NCBI GenBank assembly: GCA_944371785.1
Contig: CALVXZ010000006.1
Location: forward strand, 1 to 35,212
Direction: 5' to 3'
From: an uncultured Clostridia bacterium
Lineage (GTDB): Bacteria; Bacillota; Clostridia; Christensenellales; DTU072
Length of the DNA stretch: 35,212 nucleotides
Below are positions 1 through 17,259 of the stretch, piece after piece. The position numbers and the translations under genes are program-made. Position 1 is the stretch's first letter. Every line of letters begins with the position of its first letter. The notes beneath the pieces were generated by a model that was given only the letters and a program-made list of their open reading frames with translations, ran no database searches and was not told the origin of the DNA.

Positions 1-2
1 TC

Positions 3-1874
3 GTTATATTCGGGAACGAATTCGTTATGCCGGAAAGCGAAGTTACTGTGTCAGCCGAATTTGCACCGGTATATTACATAAACGCTTACGATAACGAAGA
101 TATTTCCATTACTCCGTCCGCGTACACGGTTTTTGCCGGCGACACGGTGTATTTTGACGTGGACGTTCACGGATACAAAAAACAATCCGATTCCGGCAAC
201 GGGAAAGAGATAAACCCGTATTCCGTCGACTTTTCGCTGACCTGCGGAAACGACGTCATTGCCGAAATGGTTTATTCGGGGAATAAAACCTTTGTCGTTT
301 TGCCGGACGATCTGCCGGCAGGACAGTCGATCTATATAAATTATCTGCGGAGCGGTTTTATCAACAATATTTCTCATTCAAAGATCCAATACACTTCGCT
401 GTCCGCAGAAGGCACGGTCACGTCCAACTACCGTTCGGAAACTTCCGTGCCCGTAGGCGCAGAAGTAATTTTGGAGATCAGCCCGGCAGAAGGATACGCT
501 TTGTCGGAACTGATATTCAAGAATTTGTTTACGGGCGAAACCTATCCGGGAAATATGCTGTTCCGAATGCCCGAATACGATCTGCAGATCACCGCCGAGT
601 TCGTTTCGAAGTCCGCGGATCCGGTTACTCCCGTGGAAATTTATGCGGTCAGAAAAGACGAATTCACCGCCGCCGGTTTCGAAATATCGCTGTCGCACAG
701 CGCGGCTGAGCTTTCCGAGGAATGGAAAGGTTATACTCTTTCGGGGTATCTGAACGGCGCGGTCTCCGTAAAGAGCGACGATTCGTTCGATTTCTATCTG
801 TTGTACGTCGATTCGCTCTCGACAGTGGCTCCCGTTTCGCAAACAGCAGGTATGATCCTTCAAAAGACCTTCCCCGAAGCCGAAATAGATTGTTATATCT
901 ACTATAACACTATTGTTTTCGCGCTTGACGGCGACGCCGGAACGGGATACGAAATGTTGAAATACGGCGTTGAACACGATGAGAACTTTATTTATTTCCG
1001 CCGCGCCGATCAAACTCTGGGAGTCCTGGCTTATAAAAACGATTCGCCTTACGTTACCATTCCGGATTCCGTAAACGGATCGCGCGTCGCGTTCATACAT
1101 CGACTTGCGTTCGGCGGAAACACATCGATCCGTACAATCAACTTCGCCGCGGTCACCGAGATCGACGATTTTGCTTTCGAAGGCGTTACGGGAGTCAAAT
1201 ACTTCGATATCGGCTTTGTTTCCGATTCGGGTGTCGGCGCTTTTAAAAATACGCGCGTCAGACGTTTTGATACTTCTACCGGTAACGGTTACTTTACCGC
1301 GGACTCTTACGGGGTGCTGTACAGCATAAACCTACTCGGAAGCCGCGTTTTGGAGGCTTTCCCGACGCTTTCGGATACGACGGTTTATACTCTGCAATCA
1401 CGCACAAACGCTATCGCCGATTACGCGTTCTACGGCGCGGAAAATCTTGTGACAATCAAATATATGAGCACGCTGACGACCGTGGGCGATTACGCGTTCT
1501 ACGGCGCGGTTGATCTTGCGTACGTTTTGCACAGTTCGGATAACGACACCTCCGATAAAAAAGCCGATTTTTCGAATACGGTCTGCAATGTGACCGACGT
1601 CGGTTCCTATGCGTTCGCCGGTACGGATATCGAAATTTTCAGGTTCGATAAAATTATTTCCCTGGGTACCGCGGCGGTGGTCTTCGACGGGACCGGGAAC
1701 GTAACGATAGTGCTGAACGGGAATCGGCTGATCGACGCCGAATACGAACCCGTCCTGATCGACGCCCCCGACGGCGACGCCGGATTTAAGCTGTCTTTGG
1801 ACGGCGGAGCTCTGACCGAAGAATACAAAAACGATACCGCTTTCTCGTATCTTAGCGAATATTTTAACGACTGA
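3..1874 (+). CDS. BspA-like leucine-rich-repeat surface protein, 3' part
   Basis: The reading frame is open from the left edge, so this is the C-terminal part of a larger protein; the ATG at 27 is internal. Two segments of the pattern MPxxxVxVxAEF (codons around 27-62 and again near 570-605) mark the ends of divergent InlB-B/bacterial repeat domains, common in secreted proteins of gut Firmicutes. The second half carries BspA-type (LRR_5) units recognisable as IxDYAFYGAxxL; two copies are spaced 23 codons apart. The protein stops at a plain hydrophilic C-terminus (LSEYFND) with no LPXTG, SLH or membrane segment, so how it stays on the surface is not visible here; the anchor or signal peptide may lie in the missing N-terminal part. 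Such proteins typically mediate binding to host or microbial surfaces, but no specific ligand can be inferred. Confidence 0.8.
   Translation, partial: VIFGNEFVMPESEVTVSAEFAPVYYINAYDNEDISITPSAYTVFAGDTVYFDVDVHGYKKQSDSGNGKEINPYSVDFSLTCGNDVIAEMVYSGNKTFVVLPDDLPAGQSIYINYLRSGFINNISHSKIQYTSLSAEGTVTSNYRSETSVPVGAEVILEISPAEGYALSELIFKNLFTGETYPGNMLFRMPEYDLQITAEFVSKSADPVTPVEIYAVRKDEFTAAGFEISLSHSAAELSEEWKGYTLSGYLNGAVSVKSDDSFDFYLLYVDSLSTVAPVSQTAGMILQKTFPEAEIDCYIYYNTIVFALDGDAGTGYEMLKYGVEHDENFIYFRRADQTLGVLAYKNDSPYVTIPDSVNGSRVAFIHRLAFGGNTSIRTINFAAVTEIDDFAFEGVTGVKYFDIGFVSDSGVGAFKNTRVRRFDTSTGNGYFTADSYGVLYSINLLGSRVLEAFPTLSDTTVYTLQSRTNAIADYAFYGAENLVTIKYMSTLTTVGDYAFYGAVDLAYVLHSSDNDTSDKKADFSNTVCNVTDVGSYAFAGTDIEIFRFDKIISLGTAAVVFDGTGNVTIVLNGNRLIDAEYEPVLIDAPDGDAGFKLSLDGGALTEEYKNDTAFSYLSEYFND
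1418..1509 (+). repeat. 23-nt perfect direct repeat inside the LRR region
   Basis: An identical 23-nt sequence occurs at 1418-1440 and 1487-1509, encoding the DYAFYGA core of two successive leucine-rich repeats. The offset is 69 nt, i.e. exactly 23 codons, the usual length of the BspA-type repeat. Identity at the DNA level, including third codon positions, suggests recent duplication or gene conversion between repeat units. Confidence 0.85.
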
Positions 1875-1905
1875 ATTTTTTTATTCGAAATTAAATAATT
1901 TTAAT

Positions 1906-1928
1906 AAGCTCCTTCGGGAGCTTTTTTT
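1906..1928 (+). terminator. Rho-independent terminator after the LRR protein gene
   Basis: A 7-bp perfect stem (AAGCTCC/GGAGCTT) closes a TTCG tetraloop and runs directly into seven T residues. It lies 32 nt after the stop codon at 1874, ending the LRR-protein transcript. Confidence 0.92.
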
Positions 1929-1938
1929 ATTCCCTAAA

Positions 1939-1967
1939 TCATATACGAAAAGGATACGGCATAGGAT
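1939..1967 (+). promoter_or_regulatory. Candidate sigma-E-type sporulation promoter
   Basis: TCATATA (1939-1945) and CATAGGAT (1960-1967) are separated by 14 nt. They match the B. subtilis sigma-E consensus (kmATATT, 14-15 nt, CATACAmT) at 6 of 7 and 6 of 8 positions. The site sits just after a terminator and upstream of a PdaB-like gene, a family controlled by sporulation sigma factors in Bacillus. The predicted leader before the ATG at 2065 would be about 90 nt. The match was found by eye, so chance is not excluded. Confidence 0.35.
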
Positions 1968-2064
1968 ATTCTAGAAAACCGCCCGAAGGCATTTTTCGCG
2001 GAGAACGGCTATTTTCCGCAGATTTTCGCTTCGGCGCGGGCGTTAATATGGAGGTAGCGGATAA

Positions 2065-2823
2065 ATGATCCCGATAGTCGTCAAAAAACGCACATTGATA
2101 GCGATAATCCTGATCGTAGCCGTAGTCGTCGCCGTTATAGCCGGTGTTTGCGCCGGCAATAAAACGGAGGACGTAGCCGCGATCAACAGAAAAGTTCCCG
2201 TTTACGCAGTGGATACCTCAGAAAAACAAGTGGCGCTGACCTTCGACGCCGCATGGGGTGCCGATCAGACCAGAAAAATTATGGATGAAGTAGAAAAATA
2301 CGGTTTTAAATGCACTTTCTTTCTGACGGGATTCTGGATAGACGAAAACAAGGAGCTCGTTAAGGAGATATCCGATCGCGGGCATCTGATAGGCAACCAT
2401 TCGGAAAATCACAAGCATCTGAACGAAGTCGCGGATCTTAATGCGGAGATAGATTCCGTTAACGCGGACATATCCGCTATCACAGGCAGTTCTCCCGTTT
2501 ATTTCAGAGCTCCTTTCGGAGAATACGACAACGATCTGATTTCGGCTTTGGAATCGAAGGGGATGCAATGCGTTCAATGGAGCATAGATTCGTTGGATTG
2601 GAAGGGGATCTCTTCTTCGCAGATAGCCGAACGCGTGGTAAACGATCTGGAAGCCGGCGATATAGTGCTTATGCATAACGCTTCCGACCACATCGTTGAG
2701 GCGCTGCCGCTGATACTGCTGTCTATTCGGAATAAGGGGCTTTCCGCGGTGCGCCTTGACGAAATGCTGTACAAAGACAACTATACCGTGAATTCTCAGG
2801 GTATACAAATCAAAAATCAATAA
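2065..2823 (+). CDS. PdaB-like polysaccharide deacetylase, membrane-anchored
   Basis: A 252-residue protein with an N-terminal signal anchor (hydrophobic residues about 10-29 after KKR) followed by an extracellular NodB-homology domain. The five deacetylase motifs are present: TFDAAWG with catalytic-type Asp61, HSENH with metal-ligand His112 and His116, RAPFGEYD at 148-155, DSLDW near 175-179 and LMHNAS with His204. In motif 1 the second Asp of the usual TFDDG is replaced (TFDAAWG), as in Bacillus PdaB (TFDISWG); one metal ligand therefore differs from classical peptidoglycan deacetylases. PdaB acts in spore cortex formation in Bacillus, so a spore-envelope role is plausible but inferred. GGAGG at about 2051 lies in front of the ATG. 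The next gene follows 24 nt later and is probably cotranscribed. Other members of carbohydrate esterase family 4 are possible. Confidence 0.88.
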   Translation: MIPIVVKKRTLIAIILIVAVVVAVIAGVCAGNKTEDVAAINRKVPVYAVDTSEKQVALTFDAAWGADQTRKIMDEVEKYGFKCTFFLTGFWIDENKELVKEISDRGHLIGNHSENHKHLNEVADLNAEIDSVNADISAITGSSPVYFRAPFGEYDNDLISALESKGMQCVQWSIDSLDWKGISSSQIAERVVNDLEAGDIVLMHNASDHIVEALPLILLSIRNKGLSAVRLDEMLYKDNYTVNSQGIQIKNQ

Positions 2824-2847
2824 GAAAAAAGACAGGAGAATTTAAGG

Positions 2848-3522
2848 ATGAACAATTCGATACCGAAAAACCCGATATGTCGTAACCATTCGGTGATTAT
2901 CAGCGGAACCGTGGACAAAGAACTTTCTTTTTCGCATTCCGCTTACGGAGAAAACTTCTTCGAAACGTACGTTGCCGTAAAAAGGATGTCGGAGCAAATA
3001 GACCGCGTGCCGGTGACAATATCCGAACAGCTGCTGAATTCCTTCGGGGACATCGGAAAAGGCGACGCGATCGAAGTAACGGGGCAGTTCAGGAGCGTAA
3101 ACAAATTGATAAACGGCAGATCCAAACTTGTGCTTTCCGTGTTTGCGAAAGATTTGGCGAGGGATCCCGAAAAAATGAACGTAAACGAGATAGAGCTGAT
3201 AGGCTACGTTTGCAAACCGACTGTATACAGGATAACGCCTTTCAAACGCGAAATAGCCGATATCCTTATCGCGGTAAACCGCGCATATCATAAATCCGAT
3301 TACATTCCCTGTATCACCTGGGGAAAAAACGCACAGTTCGCGGCAGGATTGGAAGTAGGCGATAAAGTATACGCTTTCGGCAGAATACAGTCCCGAGAAT
3401 ACAGGAAAAAACTTGAAAACGGTACAGAAGAAACGCGAACGGCATACGAAGTAAGCATTACCAGCATAGGATACGCAGCTGCCGATATGTTCGGCGACGG
3501 CGATATTATGGAAGGCAGCTGA
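2848..3522 (+). CDS. SSB-like protein with two OB-fold domains
   Basis: A 224-residue protein that appears to hold two OB folds in tandem. Residues about 15-105 form an SSB-like unit (SGTVDKELSFSH...ETYVAVKR...GDAIEVTGQFRS). Residues about 110-205 form a second one (IELIGYVCKPTVYR...ILIAVNRAYHKSDYIPCITWGKNA...GDKVYAFGRIQSREY) that is clearly like the core of bacterial single-stranded DNA-binding protein. It lacks the acidic DDDIPF-type tail of the main replication SSB, so it is more likely an accessory ssDNA-binding protein than the essential one. AGGAG at 2834-2838 precedes the ATG. It lies in the same short operon as the deacetylase upstream, without an evident functional link. Confidence 0.72.
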   Translation: MNNSIPKNPICRNHSVIISGTVDKELSFSHSAYGENFFETYVAVKRMSEQIDRVPVTISEQLLNSFGDIGKGDAIEVTGQFRSVNKLINGRSKLVLSVFAKDLARDPEKMNVNEIELIGYVCKPTVYRITPFKREIADILIAVNRAYHKSDYIPCITWGKNAQFAAGLEVGDKVYAFGRIQSREYRKKLENGTEETRTAYEVSITSIGYAAADMFGDGDIMEGS

Positions 3523-3550
3523 AACGGGGAAAGGAAATACAGACTCAAAC

Positions 3551-3579
3551 TTGAATTACAGTTTTGAAAGAGCTATAAT
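3551..3579 (+). promoter_or_regulatory. Sigma-A promoter giving a predicted leaderless yggS mRNA
   Basis: TTGAAT (3551-3556), a 17-nt spacer and a perfect TATAAT (3574-3579). Only 6 nt separate the -10 box from the ATG at 3586, so transcription should begin at or next to the start codon. No Shine-Dalgarno sequence is present. Confidence 0.82.
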
Positions 3580-3585
3580 TTAAGT

Positions 3586-4266
3586 ATGGATAAATTGATC
3601 GGGAATCTGAATAAACTTCTTTCCGAAGTCGAAGAGGCAAAATACCGTTATTCGGTAAAATATGACGTCGGATTGGTCGCTGCCGGCAAGTTCCGCAGCA
3701 CGGAAGAACTGAAAACGGTTTTTTCTACGGGTAAAATAGAAGCCATCGGGGAAAACAGGGTACAGGAATTCCGCGAAAAATACACTCCGGATATGACGTG
3801 GGACATGATCGGTCAGTTGCAGACCAACAAAGTAAAATACGTCGTCGGGAAAGTCAGACTGATCCAATCTCTGGACAGAATTGCGCTTGCGGAGGAAATT
3901 CAGAAAACTGCGGAAAAACGCGGAGTCGTCCAACAATGCCTCGTGGAGATAAATTCCGGATCGGAAGAAAACAAGGGCGGGATCGAAGCCGAAGAACTGA
4001 AGGAATTCGTAAAGCGGATGCAGGATTTCCCGAATATTAAATTGAGGGGAGTCATGGCGGTAGCGCCGCGCGGGATAGGGGAAACGCAGTTGGAAAAATG
4101 TTTTTTGAAAGCGCGCGACGCATTCCGTTCGATCGATTTTTCTGATAATTTCGATATCCTGTCCATGGGTATGAGCGAAGATTTTTCTGTCGCAATAAAA
4201 TGCGGTTCGAATTTGATAAGGCCGGGCAGAATTTTGTTCGACGGAGCGTCGAGTATTATCAAATAG
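3586..4266 (+). CDS. yggS: YggS/PLPBP-family pyridoxal phosphate homeostasis protein
   Basis: A 226-residue single-domain PLP-binding protein with the alanine-racemase-like TIM-barrel fold and no catalytic domain. The PLP lysine is Lys35 in LVAAGKFRS; GENRVQEF and IGQLQTNK follow in the family order, then VEINSGSEENKGG, GVMAVAP and the phosphate-binding LSMGMSEDF..AIKCGSNLIRPG near the C-terminus. The family (YlmE in Bacillus) buffers free PLP and affects amino-acid and vitamin B6 balance; no enzymatic reaction is established. It is followed after 17 nt by sepF, the same order as ylmE-ylmF in Bacillus. The start is fixed by the promoter, whose -10 box ends 6 nt upstream; no ribosome-binding site is visible. 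Confidence 0.93.
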   Translation: MDKLIGNLNKLLSEVEEAKYRYSVKYDVGLVAAGKFRSTEELKTVFSTGKIEAIGENRVQEFREKYTPDMTWDMIGQLQTNKVKYVVGKVRLIQSLDRIALAEEIQKTAEKRGVVQQCLVEINSGSEENKGGIEAEELKEFVKRMQDFPNIKLRGVMAVAPRGIGETQLEKCFLKARDAFRSIDFSDNFDILSMGMSEDFSVAIKCGSNLIRPGRILFDGASSIIK

Positions 4267-4283
4267 ACCATAAATTAGAATAA

Positions 4284-4643
4284 ATGAGCTATATAAAAAT
4301 GTTGAAAACAGGGGAAATACCGCAAAAAAAGAAAAAAAGATTGCCCCTTTCGGAATACGATAGATTTGCTATCGCAAACAGGCGCGTTACCGCCAAAACG
4401 ACGTCGGAAATAGTGTCCGACGCACCTGTTTCCGTTTCGGAAACCGAAGTTTTGATTGACGAATTCCGTTCCGGCAAAAGCCTTTTGGTTTCGTTTTCCA
4501 AAATGAGCTCTGTCGAAAAGTCCAGGACTTTGGATTCGATGTCCGGCGCGGTAAACGCGTTGGGAGGACGAGTCGTGTCGGTGGGTCACGATCTGTTCCT
4601 GTTTGCGGTAAAGGACGCGGAGATAGATTGCAAGATCGATTGA
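4284..4643 (+). CDS. sepF: Cell division protein SepF
   Basis: A 119-residue cytoplasmic protein. The C-terminal half (residues about 55-113: VLIDEFRSGKSLLVSFSKMS, then DSMSGAVNALGGRVVSVGHDLFLF) fits the SepF core that polymerises into rings and bundles FtsZ. SepF also tethers FtsZ to the membrane through an N-terminal amphipathic helix; here the N-terminus MSYIKMLKTG is short and only weakly amphipathic, followed by a charged KKKKR linker. The protein is shorter than Bacillus SepF (about 150 residues), mostly in the linker. It directly follows yggS, the conserved ylmE-ylmF arrangement, which strengthens the call. No good Shine-Dalgarno sequence precedes the ATG. Confidence 0.8.
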   Translation: MSYIKMLKTGEIPQKKKKRLPLSEYDRFAIANRRVTAKTTSEIVSDAPVSVSETEVLIDEFRSGKSLLVSFSKMSSVEKSRTLDSMSGAVNALGGRVVSVGHDLFLFAVKDAEIDCKID

Positions 4644-4736
4644 ATCCGGCGTATACGCGCTTCGGGTTTACGCATTACTTTTAAATTTAAATTTTTTATT
4701 ATCCGTTTATTTTACTTTCGTATATTTATTCTGCGC

Positions 4737-4766
4737 TTGAAATAAGTCGGCGGTTTGTTGTATAAT
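4737..4766 (+). promoter_or_regulatory. Sigma-A promoter giving a predicted leaderless lspA mRNA
   Basis: TTGAAA (4737-4742), an 18-nt spacer and a perfect TATAAT (4761-4766), followed by only 6 nt before the ATG at 4773. The position rules out a TTG at 4755 as the start codon, since it would lie upstream of the -10 box. No Shine-Dalgarno sequence is present. Confidence 0.82.
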
Positions 4767-4772
4767 GCTCCT

Positions 4773-5336
4773 ATGAATAAAAACATTGCCGAAAAATTTA
4801 TTTATAAATCTCCTAAAAAGACGGTTTTGGTGATATTATTCGAACTTTTAATGGTCGGCATTTATCTGGCGATAGATCTATTGACCAAACATTTCATCTA
4901 TATGCCCATTGCGGCAGGCGCGGACGATATAACGATTTGGGACGGCGTACTGAAATTGGTCGCCGTAGAAAATACGGGCGCTTCTTTCGGTATTTTCCAA
5001 AACGCCAACGAAGTTTTATCCGTAATTTCGGTAATCGTCGTCGCCGTTTTGTTCGCGGTGATGATACTATCAGTAAAGAACAGGAACGGCTGGTTCCGCG
5101 CCGCATTGATTTTGATGCTGGCGGGCGGAATAGGCAACCTCGTCGACAGATTCGTTTTCGGTTTCGTTAGGGATTGGATTTATTTCGAACTGATCGATTT
5201 CGCGGTGTTCAATCTTGCCGATTCGGGACTGACGGTGGGATGCGTTCTGTTGATCATTTATGTAATATTTTTCTATCGTCCCGTCGATAAAAAGCAAAAA
5301 TCAGGCACGAATAATTCTTCCGCGGAGCAAAACTAA
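4773..5336 (+). CDS. lspA: Lipoprotein signal peptidase (signal peptidase II)
   Basis: A 187-residue integral membrane aspartyl protease that removes signal peptides from prolipoproteins after diacylglyceryl modification. Four hydrophobic segments are visible (about 17-36, 80-100, 108-122 and 148-170). Family motifs are in order: VAVENTGASFG (64-73), GGIGNLVDRF (118-127), then the catalytic aspartates Asp134 (VRDW) and Asp150 (FNLADSG). The C-terminal tail is hydrophilic (KKQKSGTNNSSAEQN). The start is placed at 4773, not at the TTG codons upstream, because those overlap the promoter -10 box. The rluD gene follows with a TAATG overlap, as lspA-ylyB do in Bacillus. Confidence 0.95.
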   Translation: MNKNIAEKFIYKSPKKTVLVILFELLMVGIYLAIDLLTKHFIYMPIAAGADDITIWDGVLKLVAVENTGASFGIFQNANEVLSVISVIVVAVLFAVMILSVKNRNGWFRAALILMLAGGIGNLVDRFVFGFVRDWIYFELIDFAVFNLADSGLTVGCVLLIIYVIFFYRPVDKKQKSGTNNSSAEQN

Positions 5337-6262
5337 TGGCGTTGCATACTTGTATGTTTAAAGTTGGTCCCGATAAAAACGGCGCAAGGATCGACGTTTT
5401 TTTGTCGGAAGCTTTAGGCGATTGCACGCGCTCCAGGGTCAGGCTTTCGATCATAGCCGGAGCCGTTCGCGCTGACGGTGAAACGATTCTGAAATGCGGT
5501 TATCACGTTAAAAGCGGTTCGGTTCTGGAAATAGACATACGCGACGCGGAGCCTCTGAAAGCCGAAGCCGAAAACATTCCATTGAATATCGTTTACCAGG
5601 ACGCCGATATGGCGGTTATAAACAAGCCTGCCGGAATGGTTACTCATCCCGCGCCGGGATCGGAATCGGGAACCTTGGTAAACGCGCTTTTGTATAATTT
5701 GAAGGATCTTTCGGGCATTAACGGGGTTTTAAGACCGGGAATAGTGCACCGTTTGGATAAAAACACCACCGGATTGATAATGGTTGCGAAAAACGACGCC
5801 GCTCACCTCGATTTATCCGGACAGATCGCGGAAAAAAGCGCGAAACGTTATTATATAGCTTTGGTCGACGGGAATCTGAAGGAAGACGGCGGAGTCATAG
5901 AGGCGCCGTTGGGCAGAAATCCTTCCGACAGAAAGAAAATTGCTGTGGTGGAAGGCGGCGACGCCGCAAAAACGCTATATAAAGTCGTCGAAAGATTCGG
6001 TAAATACACCTTGGTGGCTTTCGAACTTTTCACCGGAAGAACGCACCAAATCAGAGTACACGCCAAATTTATCCGTCACCCGATCGTAGGCGATTCCGTA
6101 TACGGCGGTTCCGACGAATTCGGCGTCGGAAGGCAGCTTTTACACGCTTTCAGGCTGTCTGTGGCATTGCCATCTTCCGGCGAAATAAAGAATTTTTATG
6201 CTCCCATACCCGACGATTTCAGGGCGGTTCTGAAAAAAATCCGCGATCGCGCCGTCAAATAA
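5336..6262 (+). CDS. rluD: RluD-type 23S rRNA pseudouridine synthase
   Basis: A 308-residue RluA/RluD-family enzyme that isomerises uridines in large-subunit rRNA to pseudouridine. An S4 RNA-binding domain occupies residues about 17-75 (RIDVFLSEAL...SRVRLSIIAGAV). The catalytic domain follows with NKPAGMVTHP and the catalytic motif HRLDKNTTG (nucleophile Asp141), then FTGRTHQIRVH near 232-242. The start ATG overlaps the lspA stop by one base (TAATG), with GGAG 8 nt upstream, so the two are probably translationally coupled. It is the counterpart of Bacillus ylyB; the exact target uridines cannot be told from sequence. Confidence 0.92.
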   Translation: MALHTCMFKVGPDKNGARIDVFLSEALGDCTRSRVRLSIIAGAVRADGETILKCGYHVKSGSVLEIDIRDAEPLKAEAENIPLNIVYQDADMAVINKPAGMVTHPAPGSESGTLVNALLYNLKDLSGINGVLRPGIVHRLDKNTTGLIMVAKNDAAHLDLSGQIAEKSAKRYYIALVDGNLKEDGGVIEAPLGRNPSDRKKIAVVEGGDAAKTLYKVVERFGKYTLVAFELFTGRTHQIRVHAKFIRHPIVGDSVYGGSDEFGVGRQLLHAFRLSVALPSSGEIKNFYAPIPDDFRAVLKKIRDRAVK

Positions 6263-6312
6263 AATTAAATTGAATATTTTTATAACAAAAACGGCATTTA
6301 CGCGAAAAACGC

Positions 6313-6341
6313 TTGCATGTATCCGTTTTATATGATAATAT
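6313..6341 (+). promoter_or_regulatory. Sigma-A promoter of the rimP-ribF operon
   Basis: TTGCAT (6313-6318), a 17-nt spacer and TAATAT (6336-6341). Transcription would begin near 6348, placing the rimP leader hairpin inside a leader of about 65 nt. No other good promoter is seen before rimP. Confidence 0.7.
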
Positions 6342-6366
6342 AAATTTACTTTATAGTAGAAATACT

Positions 6367-6393
6367 AAAGAGTGGCTGAATTTGCCACTCTTT
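6367..6393 (+). ncRNA. rimP leader hairpin
   Basis: A 10-bp perfect stem, AAAGAGTGGC (6367-6376) with GCCACTCTTT (6384-6393), closes a 7-nt loop about 20 nt before the rimP start. A hairpin of the AGAGTGG/CCACTCT type in front of rimP is a recurrent cis-regulatory leader in Firmicutes. The stem ends in only three T residues followed by GTTAGG, so it could be a weak attenuator or an RNA-binding site, perhaps for autoregulation of the nusA operon. The mechanism is not established here. Confidence 0.75.
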
Positions 6394-6412
6394 GTTAGGT
6401 AGCGAGGTAAAT

Positions 6413-6931
6413 GTGTTGTATTCCGAAACGGTAAAGGAACGCGCGGAAAAAATTATCGCCGAAGTCATCGAACCGATGGGCTACGAATTGGTAGAGGTCA
6501 CTTATACGACGGGAAAGGAAAAAGTGCTGACCGCTTATATCTATAAAAAAGGCGGAGTGACCTTGGACGATTGCGTGGCGGTGAACGACGCTCTGGAAGC
6601 TCCTTTGGAATTGAACGACATAACCGACGGGAAACCGTATACCCTGAACGTATCTTCGCCCGGATTGGACAGACCCGTCGTGACCGACCGCGACTTCAAC
6701 CGTTCTTTGGGCGAAATTTTGGAGGCGATCCTGCTTAAACCGATCGGAAAAGCCAAAAAAATAGTAGGAGCGCTTTCTGCTTGGAACGACGATGAAATCA
6801 CTTTATCGGGCGATGACGGCGAAACCTCGATCCCCAGAGCGGATATTAAAATACTCAGACCTTTCGTGGATCTGAAAAGCGCCGGCAGAGTTAAATTCAA
6901 CGACGGCGATGACAAAGCGACAAACGCCTGA
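6413..6931 (+). CDS. rimP: Ribosome maturation factor RimP
   Basis: A protein of about 172 residues needed for late 30S subunit assembly. The conserved pattern is complete: the N-terminal domain with MGYELVEVTY and LDDCVAVNDAL, the signature LNVSSPGLDRPV, then the small SH3-like C-terminal domain ending in IKILRPFVDL. The start is set at GTG 6413, with GAGG at 6404-6407 five nt upstream. TTG 6416 is an alternative. The ATG at 6411 is out of frame, and an in-frame TTG at 6392 falls inside the leader hairpin. It heads the operon with nusA, as in most bacteria. Confidence 0.92.
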   Translation: MLYSETVKERAEKIIAEVIEPMGYELVEVTYTTGKEKVLTAYIYKKGGVTLDDCVAVNDALEAPLELNDITDGKPYTLNVSSPGLDRPVVTDRDFNRSLGEILEAILLKPIGKAKKIVGALSAWNDDEITLSGDDGETSIPRADIKILRPFVDLKSAGRVKFNDGDDKATNA

Positions 6932-6976
6932 TGGCGGACAATTAAATAAAAAATACAACTTAATAGGAGAAACGTA

Positions 6977-8089
6977 ATGCAAAATCGCGAATTGTTCATG
7001 GCATTGGACCAGATCGAAAACGAGTACAAAATCGACAAAAACCAATTGATAGCTTCTTTGGAAGCGGGGCTTGCCTCGGCTTTCAAAAAAGAATCGGGTG
7101 AAAGCCGCTCCGTTGCGGTCAGAATGAACCCCGAAAACTTCACCATCGAATTTTTTGCTTATCAGACCGTAGTCGAAGGCGAACCCGAGGACGACAACCA
7201 GCTTTCGTTGGAAGAAGCCCGCGAAATAAAGCCCGACGCCAAGGTCGGAGAATATATCGGGGAAGTAGTTTCTCCGGACGATCTTTCCAGGATCGCTGCA
7301 CAGACCGCAAAACAGGTCATCACTCAGCGTCTTAACGACGCCAAACGCGAACAGGCGATGAGCGAGATGAACGAAAAAGAAGGCGAATTGATGCAGGCGG
7401 TAGTCAGGAGGGTAGAACCTACCGGCACCGTATCCGTGGAGATCGTCGGCACTCAAATGGAAGGCGTTTTGCCTACCGGCGAACAAGTACGCGGCGAAAC
7501 CTTGCATGTGGGCGACAAAATCAAAGTATACATTAAAAAGATCAGAACGGACAGCAAAGGCACTTCGCGCGTTATGGTATCGCGTTCGGCGGCAGGTTTT
7601 GTCAGAAAACTGTTCGAAATCGAAGTCCCCGAAGTCCGCTCCGGTTTGGTAAAGATAAAGAGCATCGTCCGCGAAGCCGGACAAAGGACGAAACTCGCGG
7701 TTTATTCCGACGATCCCAACATCGACTCGATCGGATCCTGCATAGGTCCTAAGGGCAGCAGGGTAAACGCCATCATCAACGAACTCAACGGCGAAAAAGT
7801 CGACGTTATACTGTATTCTTCGAATCCTTCGGAATTTATCGTCCGCGCGCTGTCCCCCGCAAAAGTGCTTATGGTACAGCTGAACGAAACCGACCAGCAG
7901 GCTCGCGTCGTAGTTCCCGACGACAAACTCTCGCTTGCGATCGGCAGAGGCGGATTGAACGCAAAACTCGCCGCCAGACTTACCGGATTTAAGATCGACG
8001 TAAAACCGTACTCCGAAGTCATCGCGGCGCTGTCCGACGAGGAACAGGCAGGCGAAGGCGAAGCCGATCAGAATACCGACGCCGAATAA
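6977..8089 (+). CDS. nusA: Transcription termination/antitermination factor NusA
   Basis: A 370-residue RNA polymerase-associated elongation factor that modulates pausing, intrinsic termination and antitermination. Domains in order: the N-terminal polymerase-binding domain (1-125), an S1 domain (about 134-200, with MEGVLPTGEQ), KH1 with the GPKG loop at 257-260 and KH2 with GRGG at 323-326. The protein ends soon after KH2 in an acidic tail and lacks the C-terminal AR repeats of E. coli NusA, as is normal for Firmicutes. AGGAG at 6965 precedes the ATG by a good distance. The stop overlaps the ylxR start (TAATG). Confidence 0.96.
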   Translation: MQNRELFMALDQIENEYKIDKNQLIASLEAGLASAFKKESGESRSVAVRMNPENFTIEFFAYQTVVEGEPEDDNQLSLEEAREIKPDAKVGEYIGEVVSPDDLSRIAAQTAKQVITQRLNDAKREQAMSEMNEKEGELMQAVVRRVEPTGTVSVEIVGTQMEGVLPTGEQVRGETLHVGDKIKVYIKKIRTDSKGTSRVMVSRSAAGFVRKLFEIEVPEVRSGLVKIKSIVREAGQRTKLAVYSDDPNIDSIGSCIGPKGSRVNAIINELNGEKVDVILYSSNPSEFIVRALSPAKVLMVQLNETDQQARVVVPDDKLSLAIGRGGLNAKLAARLTGFKIDVKPYSEVIAALSDEEQAGEGEADQNTDAE

Positions 8090-8346
8090 TGCATTGTCCC
8101 GAAAGAATGTGCGTCGTTTGTAAAAAACGGCTGTCCAAAGGCGAACTCGTGCGCGTCGTCGCCGCTCCGGACGGAGTCAAAATCGATGCGGACGGGAAAT
8201 TACAGGGCAGAGGCGCATATCTATGTAAAGAATCCGTTTGCGTCGAAAGGTGCATAAAGAAAAAGGTGCTGGACCGCGTACTGAAAACGGAAGTGCCGTC
8301 AGAAATATATGAAGCGTTGCGAACTTTTGCCGACAGACAGAACTAA
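8089..8346 (+). CDS. ylxR: YlxR-family nucleic-acid-binding protein
   Basis: An 85-residue protein of the DUF448/YlxR family. The family signature is clear: RMCVVCKKRLSKGELVRVV at 6-24 and GRGAYLC, with several cysteines (8, 11 and later ones) that could form a metal- or RNA-binding site. It always sits between nusA and infB in Firmicutes. YlxR has been reported as a nucleoid-associated transcription factor or RNase P-interacting protein, but its main role is unsettled. The start overlaps the nusA stop by one base. Confidence 0.92.
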   Translation: MHCPERMCVVCKKRLSKGELVRVVAAPDGVKIDADGKLQGRGAYLCKESVCVERCIKKKVLDRVLKTEVPSEIYEALRTFADRQN

Positions 8347-8614
8347 GCTGAAAAGCTATATCGGATTTGCATTGCGTAAACGCGCCGTAGCGTTCGGAGT
8401 CGACAATATATTATCGTCGAACGTAAAGGCGGTGCTCATAGACGGCGGTCTGAAAGAAAATTCGCGCAAGAAGCTGGCGAACAAGCTGTCCGACGCACGG
8501 ATATACGAACTTAACGACATTGGCGAACTTGTCAACAATCCCGCGGTAAAAGCCGTCGGAATAACAGACAAGGAGCTTACAAAAGCTATCGAAGATATGC
8601 TAACGAAATATTAA
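8309..8614 (+). CDS. ylxQ: L7Ae/YlxQ-family putative K-turn RNA-binding protein
   Basis: A 101-residue protein at the position of ylxQ between ylxR and infB. The fold pattern fits L7Ae (YIGFALRKRAVAFGVDNIL, KAVLIDGGLKENSRKKL, VKAVGITDKELTKAI). In archaea and Bacillus these proteins bind kink-turn RNA; no in vivo target is known for YlxQ. The ATG at 8309 would overlap ylxR by 38 nt. The family usually starts close to the LLGLARRAG-like segment, so a shorter start (for example TTG 8327) is possible. No clear Shine-Dalgarno sequence precedes either, suggesting translational coupling to ylxR. Confidence 0.8.
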   Translation: MKRCELLPTDRTKLKSYIGFALRKRAVAFGVDNILSSNVKAVLIDGGLKENSRKKLANKLSDARIYELNDIGELVNNPAVKAVGITDKELTKAIEDMLTKY

Positions 8615-8628
8615 ATTAGAGGAAGGAT

Positions 8629-11289
8629 ATGTCCCAAACCACTGGTAACGAACAAAATTCCGGTATCAAGAATTTACCCGCTTTTATAGAAGCGAAGCGT
8701 CAGGCTGTCGCAAAAGCGCTGACTTTTCAGCGTAGCGCGATAACCAAGGCGAAACTGCAGCTGGAAGAACGCAAAGCCGAACTTGTAAGAAAATTCGAAG
8801 AAGAAGCGGCGTTGGCAAAGACCGCCAAAGAGGCGGAAGCTCCTTCCGCGCCTGTCGAAGTCGTAGAAGATAACGCGGCGGCATCTCCCGCGGAAACCGA
8901 AACCGTAAACGAGGCGGCAGTCAAAGTCGAAGAATCTGTTACGAAGTCCGCCGCCGAGTCTTCGGAAGAAGCGGCTGGAAAAGTTACGGAATCCGTTAAA
9001 CAGGAAATTTCAAAGCCGAAGCCGGCTAAACGCGAGGTCAAACCCGAACCGGCAAAGGCGGAAAAAGACAAACCGGACGTATCCAAACAAAGACTTGCCG
9101 CGCAATCCGCCGCGGAGTCCATTATATTGGCAAAGCCCAAAAAACCGATCATAAAACCGGTAATTAAAACCTATATTCCTCCGATAGAGGAACCCAGAGG
9201 TCCCAGGAATTTCCGCGATAAAAACGGCAAACCCGCGCGTTCCAACGATAAAACCGAAACCAGCGCGGATATACTGAGGCGCGTTTCGGCGTTGGAAAAG
9301 ATGACTTCTGTGTCCGGGGCGAACGCTTCCAAGGACAAGCGCAAGACTGCTACCGTTGAACGTTCCGAAGACAAAGTCAAAACCAACAGAAAGGCGATGA
9401 CCAAAAAAGGTTACGTCGACGACGGCGCCGTTGTCGAATACGATGAAATGGGCGAGATCAAAAAGATCCGTACCAGAAGGACGGGAACCCAGAAAAAAGA
9501 GTTTTCCTCCGTTCAGGAAGCCCAGGCTATCGAACACGCGGTATTCACCAGGGATCAATTTACGGTAAAAGAACTTGCCGAAAAGATAGGGAAGACGGGT
9601 TCGGAAATAATCAAAAGACTGTTCCAGCTGGATATAATGAAGACGATAAACGACAATATCGATTTCGAAACGGCTGAATTGGTCGCCGCGGACTTCGGCG
9701 TTTCCATCGAACTGCAAAAGGAAGAAACCAGCGAAGAAAAGCTGATTTCCTACTTCGAAAAGGAATCTGAAGACGATCCGTCTTTGATGAAACCGCGTCC
9801 CCCGATAGTAACGATCATGGGTCACGTCGACCACGGCAAGACTTCGATTCTGGACTACATCAAAAAATCCAACGTAGCCGCGGGCGAAGCCGGCGGAATA
9901 ACGCAACATATCAGCGCTTACACCACCGAAGTGCGCGGAAAACAAATTTGTTTCCTGGATACCCCCGGACACGCCGCGTTTACCTCGATGCGCGCCAGGG
10001 GCGCCAACGTGACGGATATAGTCGTAATAGTCGTAGCGGCTGACGACGGCGTAATGCCTCAGACCGTGGAAGTCATCAACCACTGCAAAGCCGCAGGCGT
10101 AAAGATGATAGTCGCCATTAACAAGATCGACAAGACGGGAGCCGATCCCGACCGCGTGCTTAGCGAATTGACGGCTCACGACATCGTGCCCGAAGAATGG
10201 GGCGGCGACGTTCCCTGCGTCAGAGTCAGCGCGAAAACCGGTCAGAACATCGATTTACTGTTGGAAAACATCCTTTTGGTGGCTGAAATGATGGATCTGA
10301 AAGCCAATCCCGACAGGAACGCGCGCGGCACCGTTATCGAAGCCCGTTTGGATAAGGGCAAAGGACCGATTGCGGTGGTCTTGGTTCAGAACGGTACTCT
10401 GAAGATCGGCGATCACATAGTTGCCGGCACCGTTATCGGAAAAGTGCGCGCCCTTCAGGACGAAAAAGGCAAAATGGTTAAAAAAGCGTTGCCTTCGACC
10501 GCAGTCGCCATTTTGGGCTTGGACGACGTTCCCGAATCGGGAGATCAGCTGTTGGCAGTAGACGACGAAAAATTGTTGAAATCCGTTGTAGCCGACCGTA
10601 TCGCAAAAGAAAAGGAAAAGAAACTCCAAAGCGGCAGAATTACCTTGGACGACGTATTCCGCGGTATCGAAGAAGGCAAGCTGAAGGATCTGAACATAAT
10701 CGTAAAAGCCGACGTTCAAGGCTCCGTCGAAGCCATAAAACAAAGTCTTTTGGAACTTTCCACGGACGAAGTCCGCGTCAGGATTCCTCACGCCATGGTC
10801 GGCGCGATAAACGAATCGGACGTCGTTCTCGCCGATTCGATCAACGCTATCATAATAGGTTTCAACGTGCGTCCGATAGCCGGAGCAAAAGCGCTTGCCG
10901 AGGCCAGGAACGTCGAAATCAGATTGTACCGCGTAATTTACGACGCGATCGACGACGTCACGAAGGCTATCAAAGGCTTGTCCGCTCCGAAATACAAGGA
11001 AGAATACCTCGGCAAAGCCGAAGTCCGCGCCATCTACAAGATCAGCGGCGTCGGTACGATAGCCGGATGTATGGTCGTTGACGGAAAGATAGTCAAAAAC
11101 GCAAAAGTACGCCTTATCCGCGACAATATCGTCATTGCGGACACCGCTATCGATTCCCTGAAGCGTATGAAAGACAACGTAAAAGAAGTCGTTCAGGGGT
11201 ACGAATGCGGCATAGGTTTGCTGAACTGTTCCGACATCAAAGAAGGTGATATAATCGAATCTTTCGAAGTTGTCGAGGATCGTTCTTAA
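8629..11289 (+). CDS. infB: Translation initiation factor IF-2
   Basis: An 886-residue GTPase that brings initiator tRNA to the 30S subunit and promotes subunit joining. Residues about 40-240 are a low-complexity Ala/Glu/Lys/Pro-rich segment typical of IF-2 N-termini. An IF2_N helical domain follows at about 305-365 ([20 protein letters not shown]). The G domain has G1 GHVDHGKT at 398-405, G3 DTPGH at 444-448 and G4 NKID at 498-501, followed by the beta-barrel, IF2 core and C-terminal fMet-tRNA-binding barrel ([13 protein letters not shown]...GYECGIGL). GAGGAAGG in front of the ATG is a strong ribosome-binding site. It belongs to the rimP-ribF operon. Confidence 0.97.
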
Positions 11290-11303
11290 ACGGAGAACCT
11301 TTT

Positions 11304-11654
11304 ATGAAAATAGAAAGGGTAAATTCAGAGATCAAAAAGATCTTGACGGAAATAATAGGCGAGGAGATTAAGGATCCTCGCGTTTCCGAATGTAAAATGC
11401 TGACGATAATGAACGTGGACACTTCCGCCGATCTTTCCGTGGCTTTGGTGTTCGTCAGCGTTATGGACGGAGACTCCGAAGCCGTGATAGAAGGTCTGAA
11501 CGCGGCTAAGGGTTATCTGAGAAACGCTCTGTTCAAAAGGCTGAAAGTTCGTACCGTGCCGGAGCTGAAATTCGTCCTGGACACCAGCATTGACTACGGG
11601 TTCAAGATCGACAGAATTTTACAGCAATTAAAAAAAGAGGAGGAATCCGAGTAA
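11304..11654 (+). CDS. rbfA: 30S ribosome-binding factor RbfA
   Basis: A 116-residue KH-like protein required for 16S rRNA 5'-end maturation and late 30S assembly. The family pattern is complete: RVNSEIKKILTEII near the N-terminus, DPRV, TIMNVDTSADLSVALVFVSV, then the helix AAKGYLRNALFKRLKVRTVPEL and FVLDTSIDYGFKIDRIL. It starts 14 nt after infB with GGAG upstream, and the next gene begins one base after its stop codon. The infB-rbfA order is nearly universal. Confidence 0.95.
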   Translation: MKIERVNSEIKKILTEIIGEEIKDPRVSECKMLTIMNVDTSADLSVALVFVSVMDGDSEAVIEGLNAAKGYLRNALFKRLKVRTVPELKFVLDTSIDYGFKIDRILQQLKKEEESE

Positions 11655-11655
11655 G

Positions 11656-12636
11656 ATGTACGAGGCTTTGTCCGCGGCAATACATTCTGCCGATAAAGTG
11701 GCGCTGTTTATGCACGTGCGCCCGGACGGCGACGCTGCCGGCAGCGCCCTTGCAACCAAACATTATCTGGAAAACCTCGGTAAAAAAGTCGATATCCTTA
11801 TCGAAAATCCTCTGGAATTAAGACAGCAACTGAAGATATTGCCCGGTTTTTCCGAAATCGGTAAATGCAGATCCCGCCGTTACGACCTGGGTATCGCTTT
11901 GGATACCGCGACTTCGGCTAGATTGGGAACCAAATGCCAGGCGCTGTATTACGGAAGATGTTCGGAACACGCTGTCGTCGATCATCACGTTTCGTCGGAA
12001 GACTTCGGCGAGATCATCGTACGCGAACCCGGTGCGGCAGCCACCGCCGAAATTTTATTCAGAATTTTCAGCGAACACGACAAAAACGCTATAGATCTGA
12101 ACGTGGCGACTTGCCTTTACGCGGGTATCGTCACCGATTCGGGCGCGCTGACTTTTTCGAATACTTCGGAAGAAACTCTGACGATCGCCGCAAAATTGGC
12201 TGCTTACGGCGTGGACAGGTATACCGTCGTCCAGAAACTTTTCAAAGAGGAACGCCGCGAAGTTTTCAATCTGAAATTAAGAGTGCTGTCGCGTGCGGAA
12301 TTCCCCGCGCAAGGCAGATGCGGAATAATAGTTTTCAAACAAAGCGATTTTGCCGCTACCGGGACTTCCGACCTGGATACCGAAGGTTTGATAAACAACA
12401 TAATCAATATAGAAGGCATTGACCTCGCGATCGCGGCGTCCGAACGCGAAGATATGAACTCCTATCAGGTTTCCGTCAGAGCGAAAAACGGCGTAAACGC
12501 CGCAAAATTCGCCGAAAAGTTCGGCGGTGGCGGTCACGTCTGTGCCAGCGGACTGAGGCTTTTGACGGGCGGCGAAGAAGGCTTGGCGGAATTGAAGAAA
12601 GCCGCAGAAGAATATTTATCCGAAAACGATCGATGA
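11656..12636 (+). CDS. nrnA: DHH-family nanoRNase/pAp phosphatase NrnA
   Basis: A 326-residue bifunctional oligoribonuclease/3'-phosphoadenosine-5'-phosphate phosphatase of the DHH-DHHA1 family. Metal-binding motifs are intact: HVRPDGDAAGS (His20, Asp24, Asp26), ALDT near 90, VDHH (Asp109-His110-His111) and VTDSGAL. The DHHA1 substrate-binding loop GGGGH lies at 290-294. The enzyme degrades the shortest RNA fragments and recycles pAp. It sits between rbfA and truB, as in many Clostridia and mycoplasmas. GAGGAGG within the end of rbfA serves as ribosome-binding site; the ATGA overlap with truB implies coupled translation. Confidence 0.94.
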   Translation: MYEALSAAIHSADKVALFMHVRPDGDAAGSALATKHYLENLGKKVDILIENPLELRQQLKILPGFSEIGKCRSRRYDLGIALDTATSARLGTKCQALYYGRCSEHAVVDHHVSSEDFGEIIVREPGAAATAEILFRIFSEHDKNAIDLNVATCLYAGIVTDSGALTFSNTSEETLTIAAKLAAYGVDRYTVVQKLFKEERREVFNLKLRVLSRAEFPAQGRCGIIVFKQSDFAATGTSDLDTEGLINNIINIEGIDLAIAASEREDMNSYQVSVRAKNGVNAAKFAEKFGGGGHVCASGLRLLTGGEEGLAELKKAAEEYLSENDR

Positions 12637-13511
12637 TCTCCGCTTTTGTGAATCTGAATAAAGAAAAAGGCATGACCAGCGCCAAAGCCGTCGCAAAAGT
12701 TAAACGAATACTTTCCGACAAAGGGCTTCCGACGTTGAAGACGGGGCATATGGGAACGCTGGATCCCGACGGAGAGGGCGTTCTGCCCGTCGCCGTAGGC
12801 AGAGCCACCAGATTGTTCGATTACGTTACCGGCGATAAAATTTATTATACGGAATTCGTGTTCGGAAAAACCACCGACACTCTGGACGCTTCGGGGAATT
12901 TTTCCGACGTCACCGGTCCCGTTCCCGATTCCGACGCGCTGCGATCCGTCATACCTTCTTTAACGGGTAAAATTTCGCAGATCCCGCCTAAATATTCAGC
13001 CAAATCCGTGAACGGCAGGAGAGCTTACGACCTGGCGCGCGCCGGAGAAGAATTTGAATTAAAACCCAAACAAATAGAAATTTATTCCATAGATTATCTA
13101 GGAAGAGCCGACGAGGCGTTTGCGTTCCGCGTAAGCTGTTCCGGCGGTACTTATATCCGCAGCCTTTGCAGGGATATGGCGGAAAAAGCCGGAACGGTAG
13201 GGTATATGCGTTTGATCCGACGTGAAAAATGCGGCGTTTTCGAATATAAGGACGCAGTTACTTTGGATACTCTTCGCGCGGCGGACGATATCGGTAAATA
13301 TCTGATCCCGATAGAATCGGCTCTGTCATATCTTCCCGTTTACGAACTCAACGGTAACCCGGAGGGCGCAAGACTTATCCTTAACGGCGTACCGTTGCGC
13401 CTTTCGGGCATGCCCGATTCGCTTTTCCGATTGAATATAGACGGAAATCTGTTCGGCTTGGGCAGAAAAGACATGGACGGTCGTTTCCAATGGGCGGTGA
13501 GGTTGACATGA
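12633..13511 (+). CDS. truB: tRNA pseudouridine-55 synthase TruB
   Basis: A 292-residue enzyme that makes the nearly universal pseudouridine 55 in the T-loop of tRNAs. The catalytic motif GTLDPDGEGVLPVAVGRATR starts at residue 41, with catalytic Asp44. NKEKGMTS at the N-terminus, QIPPKYSAKSVNGRRAYDLAR in the middle and VSCSGGTYIRSLCRDM at about 169-184 are the other family signatures. Start and stop both overlap neighbours as ATGA (nrnA at 12633-12636, ribF at 13508-13511), so the three genes form a coupled block. Confidence 0.96.
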   Translation: MISAFVNLNKEKGMTSAKAVAKVKRILSDKGLPTLKTGHMGTLDPDGEGVLPVAVGRATRLFDYVTGDKIYYTEFVFGKTTDTLDASGNFSDVTGPVPDSDALRSVIPSLTGKISQIPPKYSAKSVNGRRAYDLARAGEEFELKPKQIEIYSIDYLGRADEAFAFRVSCSGGTYIRSLCRDMAEKAGTVGYMRLIRREKCGVFEYKDAVTLDTLRAADDIGKYLIPIESALSYLPVYELNGNPEGARLILNGVPLRLSGMPDSLFRLNIDGNLFGLGRKDMDGRFQWAVRLT

Positions 13512-14452
13512 CTGAACAAATCGTGGCGCCCGAATACCAAAAATACCGCTTAAAAACTCAGCGCAAACGCATTATCGCTCTGGGAATGTTCGATTCCGTG
13601 CATATAGGTCACAGATCGGTCATCGAATATACCTTCGAATGCGCAAAACGACTCGGAATGACTCCGGCGATACTCACTTTCGACAACTGCTTTTTCGAAG
13701 CGCTGGGAAAAAACGAAAAACTTATCTACACGTTAAAAGAAAGAATCGGTATATTGGAAAAAATAGGATTTTCAGCTTCCGACATCCTGGTTCAGCCGTC
13801 GGATCCCGCTTTTTTGTCTATGAGCGGCGAAGAATTCGTGTCGTATTTATGCAGGCTTAACGCAGGGACGGTCGTGTGCGGCGCCGATTATCGCTTCGGA
13901 AAAGGCGGGAAATGGGGCGTCGCGGATCTGTGCCGCATTGCGCGCGGATACGGAATAAGCGCGTTCGTCTGCCCTTTGGTAAAGGAATGGGAACGCAAAA
14001 TTTCTTCGTCGGATATCAGGGAATATCTGGGAATCGGCGAAGTTAAATTGGCGGCGCATTTCCTCGGAAGACTTTTCGGAGTGACGGGCGAAGTTGTGCA
14101 CGACAGAGGAGTCGGAAAGAGCTTCGGACTGCCCACCGCGAACATAATTACCGACGAAAGGAAGCTGCTGCCTGCGGACGGAGTTTACGATACCAGGGTC
14201 GTGATAGGCGGCAAAAAACTTCCGGCAGTCACTAACGTGGGCTCCAGACCGACATTCGGAGAAGGTAAAAGGGCGATCGAAACGCACATTATCGATTTTG
14301 ACGGAAATATATACGAACAGGAAATCACCGTACTGTTCGTGGAACGCCTGCGCGGAATTTTCAGATTCGACACCAAGGAAGAATTGCGTATGCAAATACT
14401 TTCCGATATCGAAACGGTAAAACGTAACGCAAAAGAAAACAAAATTATATAA
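13508..14452 (+). CDS. ribF: Bifunctional riboflavin kinase/FAD synthetase RibF
   Basis: A 314-residue enzyme that converts riboflavin to FMN and FMN to FAD. The N-terminal nucleotidyltransferase domain has the adenylylation motif GMFDSVHIGH at 26-35 (usual form GxFDGxHxGH; Gly is Ser here) and SSDIREYL near 168-175. The C-terminal flavokinase domain begins at about 194 with GEVVHDRGVGKSFGLPTAN and continues with DGVYDTRV, NVGSRPTFG and ETHIIDFDGNIY. The start is placed at ATG 13508, not 13490, because GGTGAGG (13495-13501) is correctly spaced for it and it forms an ATGA overlap with truB. It ends the conserved operon order. Confidence 0.95.
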   Translation: MTEQIVAPEYQKYRLKTQRKRIIALGMFDSVHIGHRSVIEYTFECAKRLGMTPAILTFDNCFFEALGKNEKLIYTLKERIGILEKIGFSASDILVQPSDPAFLSMSGEEFVSYLCRLNAGTVVCGADYRFGKGGKWGVADLCRIARGYGISAFVCPLVKEWERKISSSDIREYLGIGEVKLAAHFLGRLFGVTGEVVHDRGVGKSFGLPTANIITDERKLLPADGVYDTRVVIGGKKLPAVTNVGSRPTFGEGKRAIETHIIDFDGNIYEQEITVLFVERLRGIFRFDTKEELRMQILSDIETVKRNAKENKII

Positions 14453-14463
14453 AGGAACCCGTT

Positions 14464-15312: not shown

Positions 15313-15351
15313 AACGTAGCGGAAAATTTATTCCGGAAGGCAGGATTATCG

Positions 15352-15384
15352 GCGGCAGGATCGGGGGATCCCGCCGCTTTTTTT
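15352..15384 (+). terminator. Rho-independent terminator of the rimP-ribF operon
   Basis: An 11-position stem (GCGGCAGGATC with GATCCCGCCGC; one A-C mismatch at its sixth position) closes a GGGG loop and runs into seven T residues at 15378-15384. The T-run overlaps the stop codon (15383-15385) of the convergent yunB gene. It ends plus-strand transcription only, since the other side lacks a T-run. Confidence 0.9.
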
Positions 15385-16045: not shown

Positions 16046-16050
16046 AATTT

Positions 16051-16081
16051 AATATATGTTTAAATTTTATTACGCGTGCAA
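16051..16081 (-). promoter_or_regulatory. Candidate yunB promoter
   Basis: On the minus strand TTGCAC (16081-16076) and TATATT (16056-16051) are separated by 19 nt, longer than ideal. The -10 box ends 5 nt before the yunB ATG, so any transcript from it would be leaderless. A CATATATT sequence here resembles a sigma-E -10 box, but no matching -35 box was found. Confidence 0.35.
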
Positions 16082-16090
16082 TTAATTGCA
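16077..16090. repeat. 14-bp perfect palindrome between divergent yunB and pheS promoters
   Basis: TGCAATTAATTGCA is a perfect inverted repeat. Its right half contributes the pheS -35 box (TTGCAA, 16086-16091) and its left half, read on the other strand, the candidate yunB -35 box (TTGCAC). It may be a protein-binding site or simply two back-to-back -35 boxes. Confidence 0.6.
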
Positions 16091-16114
16091 AAATAATTCG
16101 GCAGGTTGTATAAT
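16086..16114 (+). promoter_or_regulatory. Sigma-A promoter of pheS-pheT-mutS2-nifS-thiI
   Basis: TTGCAA (16086-16091), a 17-nt spacer and a perfect TATAAT (16109-16114). The start site should be near 16121, leaving a leader of about 20 nt that carries only the ribosome-binding site. There is no room for a T-box riboswitch, which often controls pheST in Firmicutes. Confidence 0.85.
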
Positions 16115-16141
16115 CATTATAATTTCATTCAGGAGAAAGGT

Positions 16142-17251: not shown

Positions 17252-17259
17252 GAGGAAGT

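Follow-up and report, generated by a model that had tools for sequence, protein, structure and literature searches.

Leaderless genes are well established in bacteria. In the summary figures of a genome survey, they occur in 56 of 209 Firmicutes genomes, concentrated in the Lactobacillales and Mycoplasma, and the table entry for Firmicutes is 4.2 (2.4, 16.6), which we take as the mean and range of the percentage of genes (PMC3160421). The survey names insulation from read-through as a general advantage of leaderless genes (Zheng et al., PMC3160421), and words beginning with "Clostridi" are absent from its main text. Clostridia are treated as relying on the Shine-Dalgarno (SD) sequence, and few leaderless genes appear in most mapped species that we found. 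The cited passages give 15 potentially leaderless genes for C. difficile (PMC7438776), about 2–3% of transcripts for three solventogenic clostridia (PMC9045289), 4% of InterS starts for C. phytofermentans (PMC5171806), and 212 leaderless transcripts for C. acetobutylicum (PMC4533764). Among the literature matches listed, judged by titles and the beginnings of abstracts, no title named leaderless genes in the uncultured gut Clostridia lineage described here. We analyzed the start region of its yggS gene, the genome around it, and the orthologues in related genomes.

The yggS start region and other promoters of the window

The window, i.e., the whole analyzed stretch of 35,212 nucleotides, is contig 6 of a 1.54 Mb genome comprising 117 contigs and 93% complete. 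The forward-strand yggS gene (3586–4266) encodes a YggS-family PLP protein scoring above the family cut-off of TIGR00044 (148 bits, cut-off 106). Its closest named YggS relative among the matches listed is that of Candidatus Stercoripulliclostridium merdigallinarum (77% identical), which belongs to the Clostridia in the NCBI taxonomy. On the 5' side of yggS, a −35 box TTGAAT (3551–3556) and a −10 box TATAAT (3574–3579) are separated by a 17-nt spacer, and six bases, TTAAGT (3580–3585), separate the −10 box from the ATG (3586–3588). The gene lacks an SD sequence, defined here as a match of at least 4 nt to AAAGGAGGTGA ending 3–12 nt before the start. A base-by-base check and this search confirmed the layout claimed in the preliminary description, namely TTGAAT-17-TATAAT, six bases, ATG, and no SD. 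With six bases between the −10 box and the ATG, RNA polymerase would be expected to initiate on the A of the yggS AUG, placing the predicted +1 at position 3586.

The preceding gene on the same strand, coding for a single-stranded DNA-binding protein-like product (PRK05813, 2848–3522), stops 63 nt before yggS, and a scan of window bases 1–20000 listed no terminator-like site between 3522 and 3586. With a same-strand gene this close and no listed terminator in between, yggS may also be carried on mRNA reading through from that gene, with a long leader that lacks an SD. On the other side, the forward-strand sepF gene (PF04472, 4284–4643) starts 17 nt downstream of yggS; by eye, the region before it (4266–4284) has no clear SD, despite its operon-internal look.

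The preliminary description ascribed the yggS geometry also to lspA and miaB, which holds for lspA and is approximated by miaB, with a gap of 8 instead of 6 nt. The lspA gene for signal peptidase II (4773–5336, forward strand; TIGR00077, 99 bits, cut-off 74) is preceded by a −35 box TTGAAA (4737–4742), an 18-nt spacer, and a −10 box TATAAT (4761–4766) ending 6 nt before the ATG at 4773, and is putatively leaderless. The miaB gene (26696–28003, forward strand; TIGR01574, 508 bits, cut-off 355) has a −35 box TTGCTT (26659–26664) and, after 17 nt, a −10 box TATACT (26682–26687) ending 8 nt before the ATG at 26696. Because the miaB gap is 8–9 nt among relatives (see below), its message could be leaderless with a start further from the −10 box, or may carry a leader of 1–3 nt. 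In contrast, pheS has an ordinary leader: in the forward-strand feature at 16086–17251, TTGCAA-17-TATAAT (16086–16114) ends 27 nt before the ATG at 16142, with an SD in between. On the minus strand, a TATATT (region 16046–16056) ends 5 nt before the ATG of the sporulation gene yunB at 16045, with no obvious SD by eye, making yunB a further leaderless candidate, even though a gap of 5 nt is no commoner than background in the genome sample. The number of promoter-like sites in window bases 1–20000 shows no excess (19 found, 20.9 in shuffles); the non-random feature is the position of promoters relative to start codons in the genome sample, not the number of promoter-like sites.

The gap-6 class in the genome

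We sampled 793,939 bp (52% of the genome) with 598 genes predicted by a simple home-made hexamer-based finder, whose start rule is blind to upstream motifs. Of the 598 genes, 22 have an exact TATAAT at a gap of 6 nt from the start, and gaps of 5, 7, and 8 nt account for 1, 2, and 1 genes, respectively. The other spacings between 0 and 59 nt average 1.4 genes (maximum 4), and 300 dinucleotide shuffles give 0.56 on average at gap 6 (maximum 3). When one mismatch to TATAAT is permitted outside TA...T (relaxed rule), 30 genes have the box at gap 6, compared with 5.4 at other spacings (maximum 11) and 3.4 in shuffles (maximum 9). The preliminary description had proposed a genome-wide count of SD-less genes with a −10 box ending 5–9 nt before the start. 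Run on the 52% sample, this count gave 25 of 190 genes by the exact rule, far above the shuffles (mean 1.2, maximum 5), and 46 of 190 by the relaxed rule (shuffles 6.2, maximum 15), whereas only two SD-bearing genes have such a box by either rule. The putative leaderless genes are a minority: the exact rule gives 22 and the relaxed rule, with background subtracted, about 40, or 4–7% of the 598 genes as estimated from box positions.

The genes with a relaxed gap-6 box share further features. An SD precedes 1 of the 30, compared with 408 of all 598 genes. A pyrimidine occupies position −1 in 29 of 30 versus 307 of the 568 other genes, which fits a +1 at the A of the start codon. A −35 box matching at least 4 of 6 positions at a distance of 16–18 nt is found in 18 of 30 versus 53 of 568 others. 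When position is assigned by gene distance alone, the class holds 24 of 254 promoter-proximal genes (at least 50 nt from the upstream neighbor) and 1 of 253 operon-internal ones (same strand, less than 25 nt from the neighbor), with 5 of its 30 members outside both groups. Operon-internal genes mostly bear an SD (187 of 253), as had been claimed. Among 118 promoter-proximal genes with an SD of at least 5 nt, TATAAT is scattered 16–65 nt upstream with none at 6. Together with the almost entirely SD-less gap-6 class, these genes show two initiation layouts side by side in one genome.

Loss of the anti-SD was considered as a cause and rejected, as the anti-SD of the 16S rRNA is normal, with TGGATCACCTCC closing the matched 16S sequence. 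A missing ribosomal protein S1 was considered too; an S1-type match below the rpsA cut-off is present, as in 12 of 14 control genomes. This best match (G000:C29:2193-3179, locus L233) lies in a 798-residue open frame, possibly an S1-repeat fusion of the kind known in Clostridia.

NCBIfam models match 23 of the 30 gap-6 genes at 1e-10, leaving 7 without. Products above the curated family cut-off comprise YggS, LspA, UvrC, endonuclease III, DNA polymerase III delta, the spore protease YyaC, a SigK-type sigma factor (subfamily model), a dihydroorotate-dehydrogenase-like FAD/NAD-binding protein, and YqeK, whose protein additionally has a NadD match slightly under the NadD cut-off. NAD kinase, RecX, EfbA/RqcH, IspE, and others fall below the cut-off. 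The set looks like low-level housekeeping. For five of the genes (UvrC, NAD kinase, NadD, the FAD/NAD-binding protein, and a PHP-domain protein), the match to one of their family models begins at residue 1, which supports their start codons. One leaderless-type gene, L015:3916-5028, is a possible fusion, with the first 60 residues matching RNA 2',3'-cyclic phosphodiesterase (below the cut-off) and residues of about 158–368 matching a phosphoglycolate phosphatase-type HAD hydrolase.

Conservation of the spacing among relatives

At yggS, the length of the gap is conserved and its sequence is not. An exact TATAAT ends exactly 6 nt before the ATG in 10/10 genomes of the genus, own genome included, and the six bases in between are of eight different sequences (TTAAGT, TTAACC, TCAGGT, CGGATT, TTAAAT, AACCTT in three genomes, TGAATT, and ATCGGT). 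By eye, TTGAAT, TTGAAA, or TTGCAA occupies the equivalent −35 position in 8/10 of these genomes, again including our own, and the distance from the upstream stop codon to the ATG drifts between 41 and 66 nt. The lspA gap is likewise 6 nt in 10/10 genus genomes, with TATAAT in 8 and TATACT in 2, and the sepF-to-lspA distance drifts between 48 and 183 nt. Within the genus, a single yggS locus (L113) and a single lspA locus (L107) carry a 4-nt SD match, and several lspA relatives outside the genus have an SD at the start instead. By a permissive rule that searched 15 codons on either side of the aligned start, the yggS box lies at a gap of 6–9 nt in 20 of 30 loci overall and 10 of 20 outside the genus.

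The miaB gap is 8 nt (6 loci) or 9 nt (3 loci) in all nine genus loci; the tenth genome (G004), with only a distant MiaB-type match found, lies outside this count. In the wider set, the gap is 6–9 nt in 16 of 20 loci, and five loci of other genera (among L235–L252) have 7 nt. The N-terminus of the miaB protein is conserved from at or near the equivalent of ATG 26696, with the exception of L242, where the box precedes an ATG nine codons further upstream. In one congener (L110, genome G007), a second in-frame ATG, preceded by an SD match of 7 nt, precedes the yggS start by 21 nt, and its reading frame runs across the TATAAT box; this species may combine SD-led initiation on read-through mRNA with leaderless initiation on transcripts of the yggS promoter. 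By eye, the relatives L108 and L109 keep AAAGGAGG but have no ATG directly after it.

For a broader view, we compared whole-genome counts, on both strands, of TATAAT-N6-ATG with TATAAT at 9–14 nt, using uncorrected binomial p-values. The median ratio is 2.34 in the own genus (p<0.001 in 8 of 10 genomes), 1.22 in other genera of the family (4 of 24), 1.29 in other families of the order (7 of 32), and 0.83 in other orders of the class (2 of 186, G416 and G387); this spacing control, applied to the relatives and the class, is imperfect, as its baseline in other orders is 0.83 rather than 1. A cruder reversed-pattern control was dropped because of its wide scatter over the 249 genomes of a phylum survey. 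The own genome has the highest ratio of all 252 (3.45). Two genus genomes, G003 and G006, show no significant whole-genome excess, and within the order, families represented by G034, G036, and G056 are without signal (ratios 0.78, 0.66, and 0.23). The earlier guess of a lineage trait thus finds support in a genus median about 2.3-fold against 0.83 in other orders and in gaps kept at yggS and lspA throughout the genus.

At gene level, an exact gap-6 TATAAT precedes 6 of 297 genes in a second species of the genus (G001), and 5 of 288 and 5 of 140 genes in two other families of the order (G048 and G038); an SD is present in 2 of 9, 1 of 9, and 1 of 10 of their relaxed gap-6 genes, respectively. 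Four control Bacillota (G327, G186, G163, and G318) gave 0/126, 0/151, 0/152, and 0/121, i.e., 0/550, with zero by the relaxed rule as well. For G048 and the control G163, most of the sampled sequence came from contigs known to hold a pattern match, which favors matches, yet G163 still gave zero. A second independent lineage in the class, suggested by G416, is not clearly supported by gene counts: G416, from another order and chosen for its ratio of 2.02, has 1 exact and 3 relaxed gap-6 boxes in 157 genes, with relaxed-rule shuffles at 0.81 on average (maximum 3) and also 3 relaxed boxes at gap 7. The five species of its genus (family f163, outside the order) have TATAAT-N6-ATG ratios of 2.02, 1.85, 1.60, 1.37, and 1.09.

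Probable leaderless initiation, its alternatives, and known systems

The promoter geometry, the genome-wide excess, the absence of an SD, the near-restriction to promoter-proximal genes, and the conserved spacing are best read as SD-led initiation accompanied by a minority of leaderless initiation as a lineage trait. We consider it very probable that yggS is leaderless from its own promoter, that a minority of SD-lacking genes behave alike, and that the trait is inherited in the genus and patchy in the order. A sigma-70-type (SigA) promoter of its own, with the −10 box six bases from the start codon, would drive yggS, and its message would then begin with 5'-AUG, with neither leader nor SD. 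In other bacteria, a 5'-terminal AUG is recognized together with initiator tRNA by the 70S ribosome or by an IF2-loaded 30S subunit, and this route would be expected for yggS. Other SD-lacking, mostly promoter-proximal genes would presumably use the same mode, while most genes use SD sites.

RNA polymerase can initiate 6–9 nt past the −10 box, which allows tiny leaders. It might thus start 1–3 nt before the AUG, or inside the AUG with the true start codon downstream, at an otherwise real promoter. The miaB gaps of 8–9 nt in the genus and 6–9 nt in seven other box-bearing loci would suit such leaders. However, if leaders were free, a spread of gaps would be expected, whereas the gap is sharply 6 at yggS, at lspA, and genome-wide (22 genes, against one at gap 5 and two at gap 7), and the miaB N-terminus is conserved from at or near the ATG. 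We therefore regard this alternative as improbable. We give somewhat less credence still to the idea that the TATAAT belongs to a minor or internal promoter and that yggS is translated mainly from a read-through mRNA of the upstream gene. That gene lies on the same strand, only 63 nt away and with no terminator-like site listed in between, and most potentially leaderless genes of C. phytofermentans possess a typical RBS and a further transcription start upstream, according to the cited passage (PMC5171806). Yet yggS and 29 of the 30 gap-6 genes lack an SD, so a read-through mRNA would offer no ribosome site, and read-through gives no reason for a fixed box-to-ATG distance while the gene-to-gene distance drifts. 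Least probable, to a degree that we consider almost negligible, are chance matches or a gene-calling artefact in AT-rich upstream sequence. TATAAT is common in AT-rich intergenic DNA, and promoter-like sites are not in excess in bases 1–20000, but the shuffles, the off-peak spacings, the 0/550 control genes from the same pipeline, and the conservation in orthologues contradict this explanation.

Beyond leaderless initiation itself, the order may possess, by retention or gain, a stable group of leaderless housekeeping genes in which selection maintains the exact −10-to-AUG spacing, with leaderlessness possibly insulating these genes; we put this forward tentatively and somewhat short of an even chance. 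The group would comprise yggS, lspA, and miaB, whose conservation was followed, and, in the own genome, also genes matching nadK, uvrC, nth, holA, recX, and rqcH. If insulation were true, a read-through mRNA would offer no ribosome site and protein would come solely from the gene's own promoter, and the class forms a natural gene set for asking if a leaderless gene is protected from translation on read-through mRNA. With a small, heritable class of such genes, start prediction and expression models that expect an SD may also overlook starts or put them in the wrong place in MAGs of this gut lineage. Families with and without the signal inside one order offer an evolutionary comparison for gain or loss of leaderless initiation.

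The closest described genes are the TA-led genes of Zheng et al. (2011), which have a −10-like TANNNT about 12 bp from the start and are mixed with SD-led genes (PMC3160421). The present genes resemble them in a box that would place +1 on the start codon, in the absence of an SD, and in operon-proximal position, to which we add conservation in relatives. As described there, the proximal gene of an operon alone can be leaderless, matching the promoter-proximal bias found here, and the 4–7% estimated for the own genome lies inside the Firmicutes range as we read that table (PMC3160421). Unlike the Firmicutes cases that it places in Lactobacillales and Mycoplasma, the present case concerns an uncultured Clostridia lineage with the spacing traced in orthologues. 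As in the mapped Clostridia, transcription would start at or near the start codon; there, transcription starts were mapped, and here they are deduced from sequence. The potentially leaderless genes of C. phytofermentans mostly retain an RBS as well as a further start upstream (PMC5171806, cited passage), whereas the SD and the box at gap 6 are nearly exclusive here (1/30). Among other orders of the class, gene-level counts gave none in G327 and G318 and a weak signal in G416 (1 exact and 3 relaxed of 157). Leaderless genes of the Actinobacteria and Deinococcus-Thermus have the same promoter-to-AUG geometry and coexist with SD genes. In the present genome, leaderless genes would be much rarer (about 4–7% of genes) than in those phyla, for which the table entries are 19.2 and 39.4 (PMC3160421), and here they have a full TATAAT and, in most cases, a recognizable −35 box. 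We therefore assign these genes to a known class, here in a new lineage, and propose no new mechanism.
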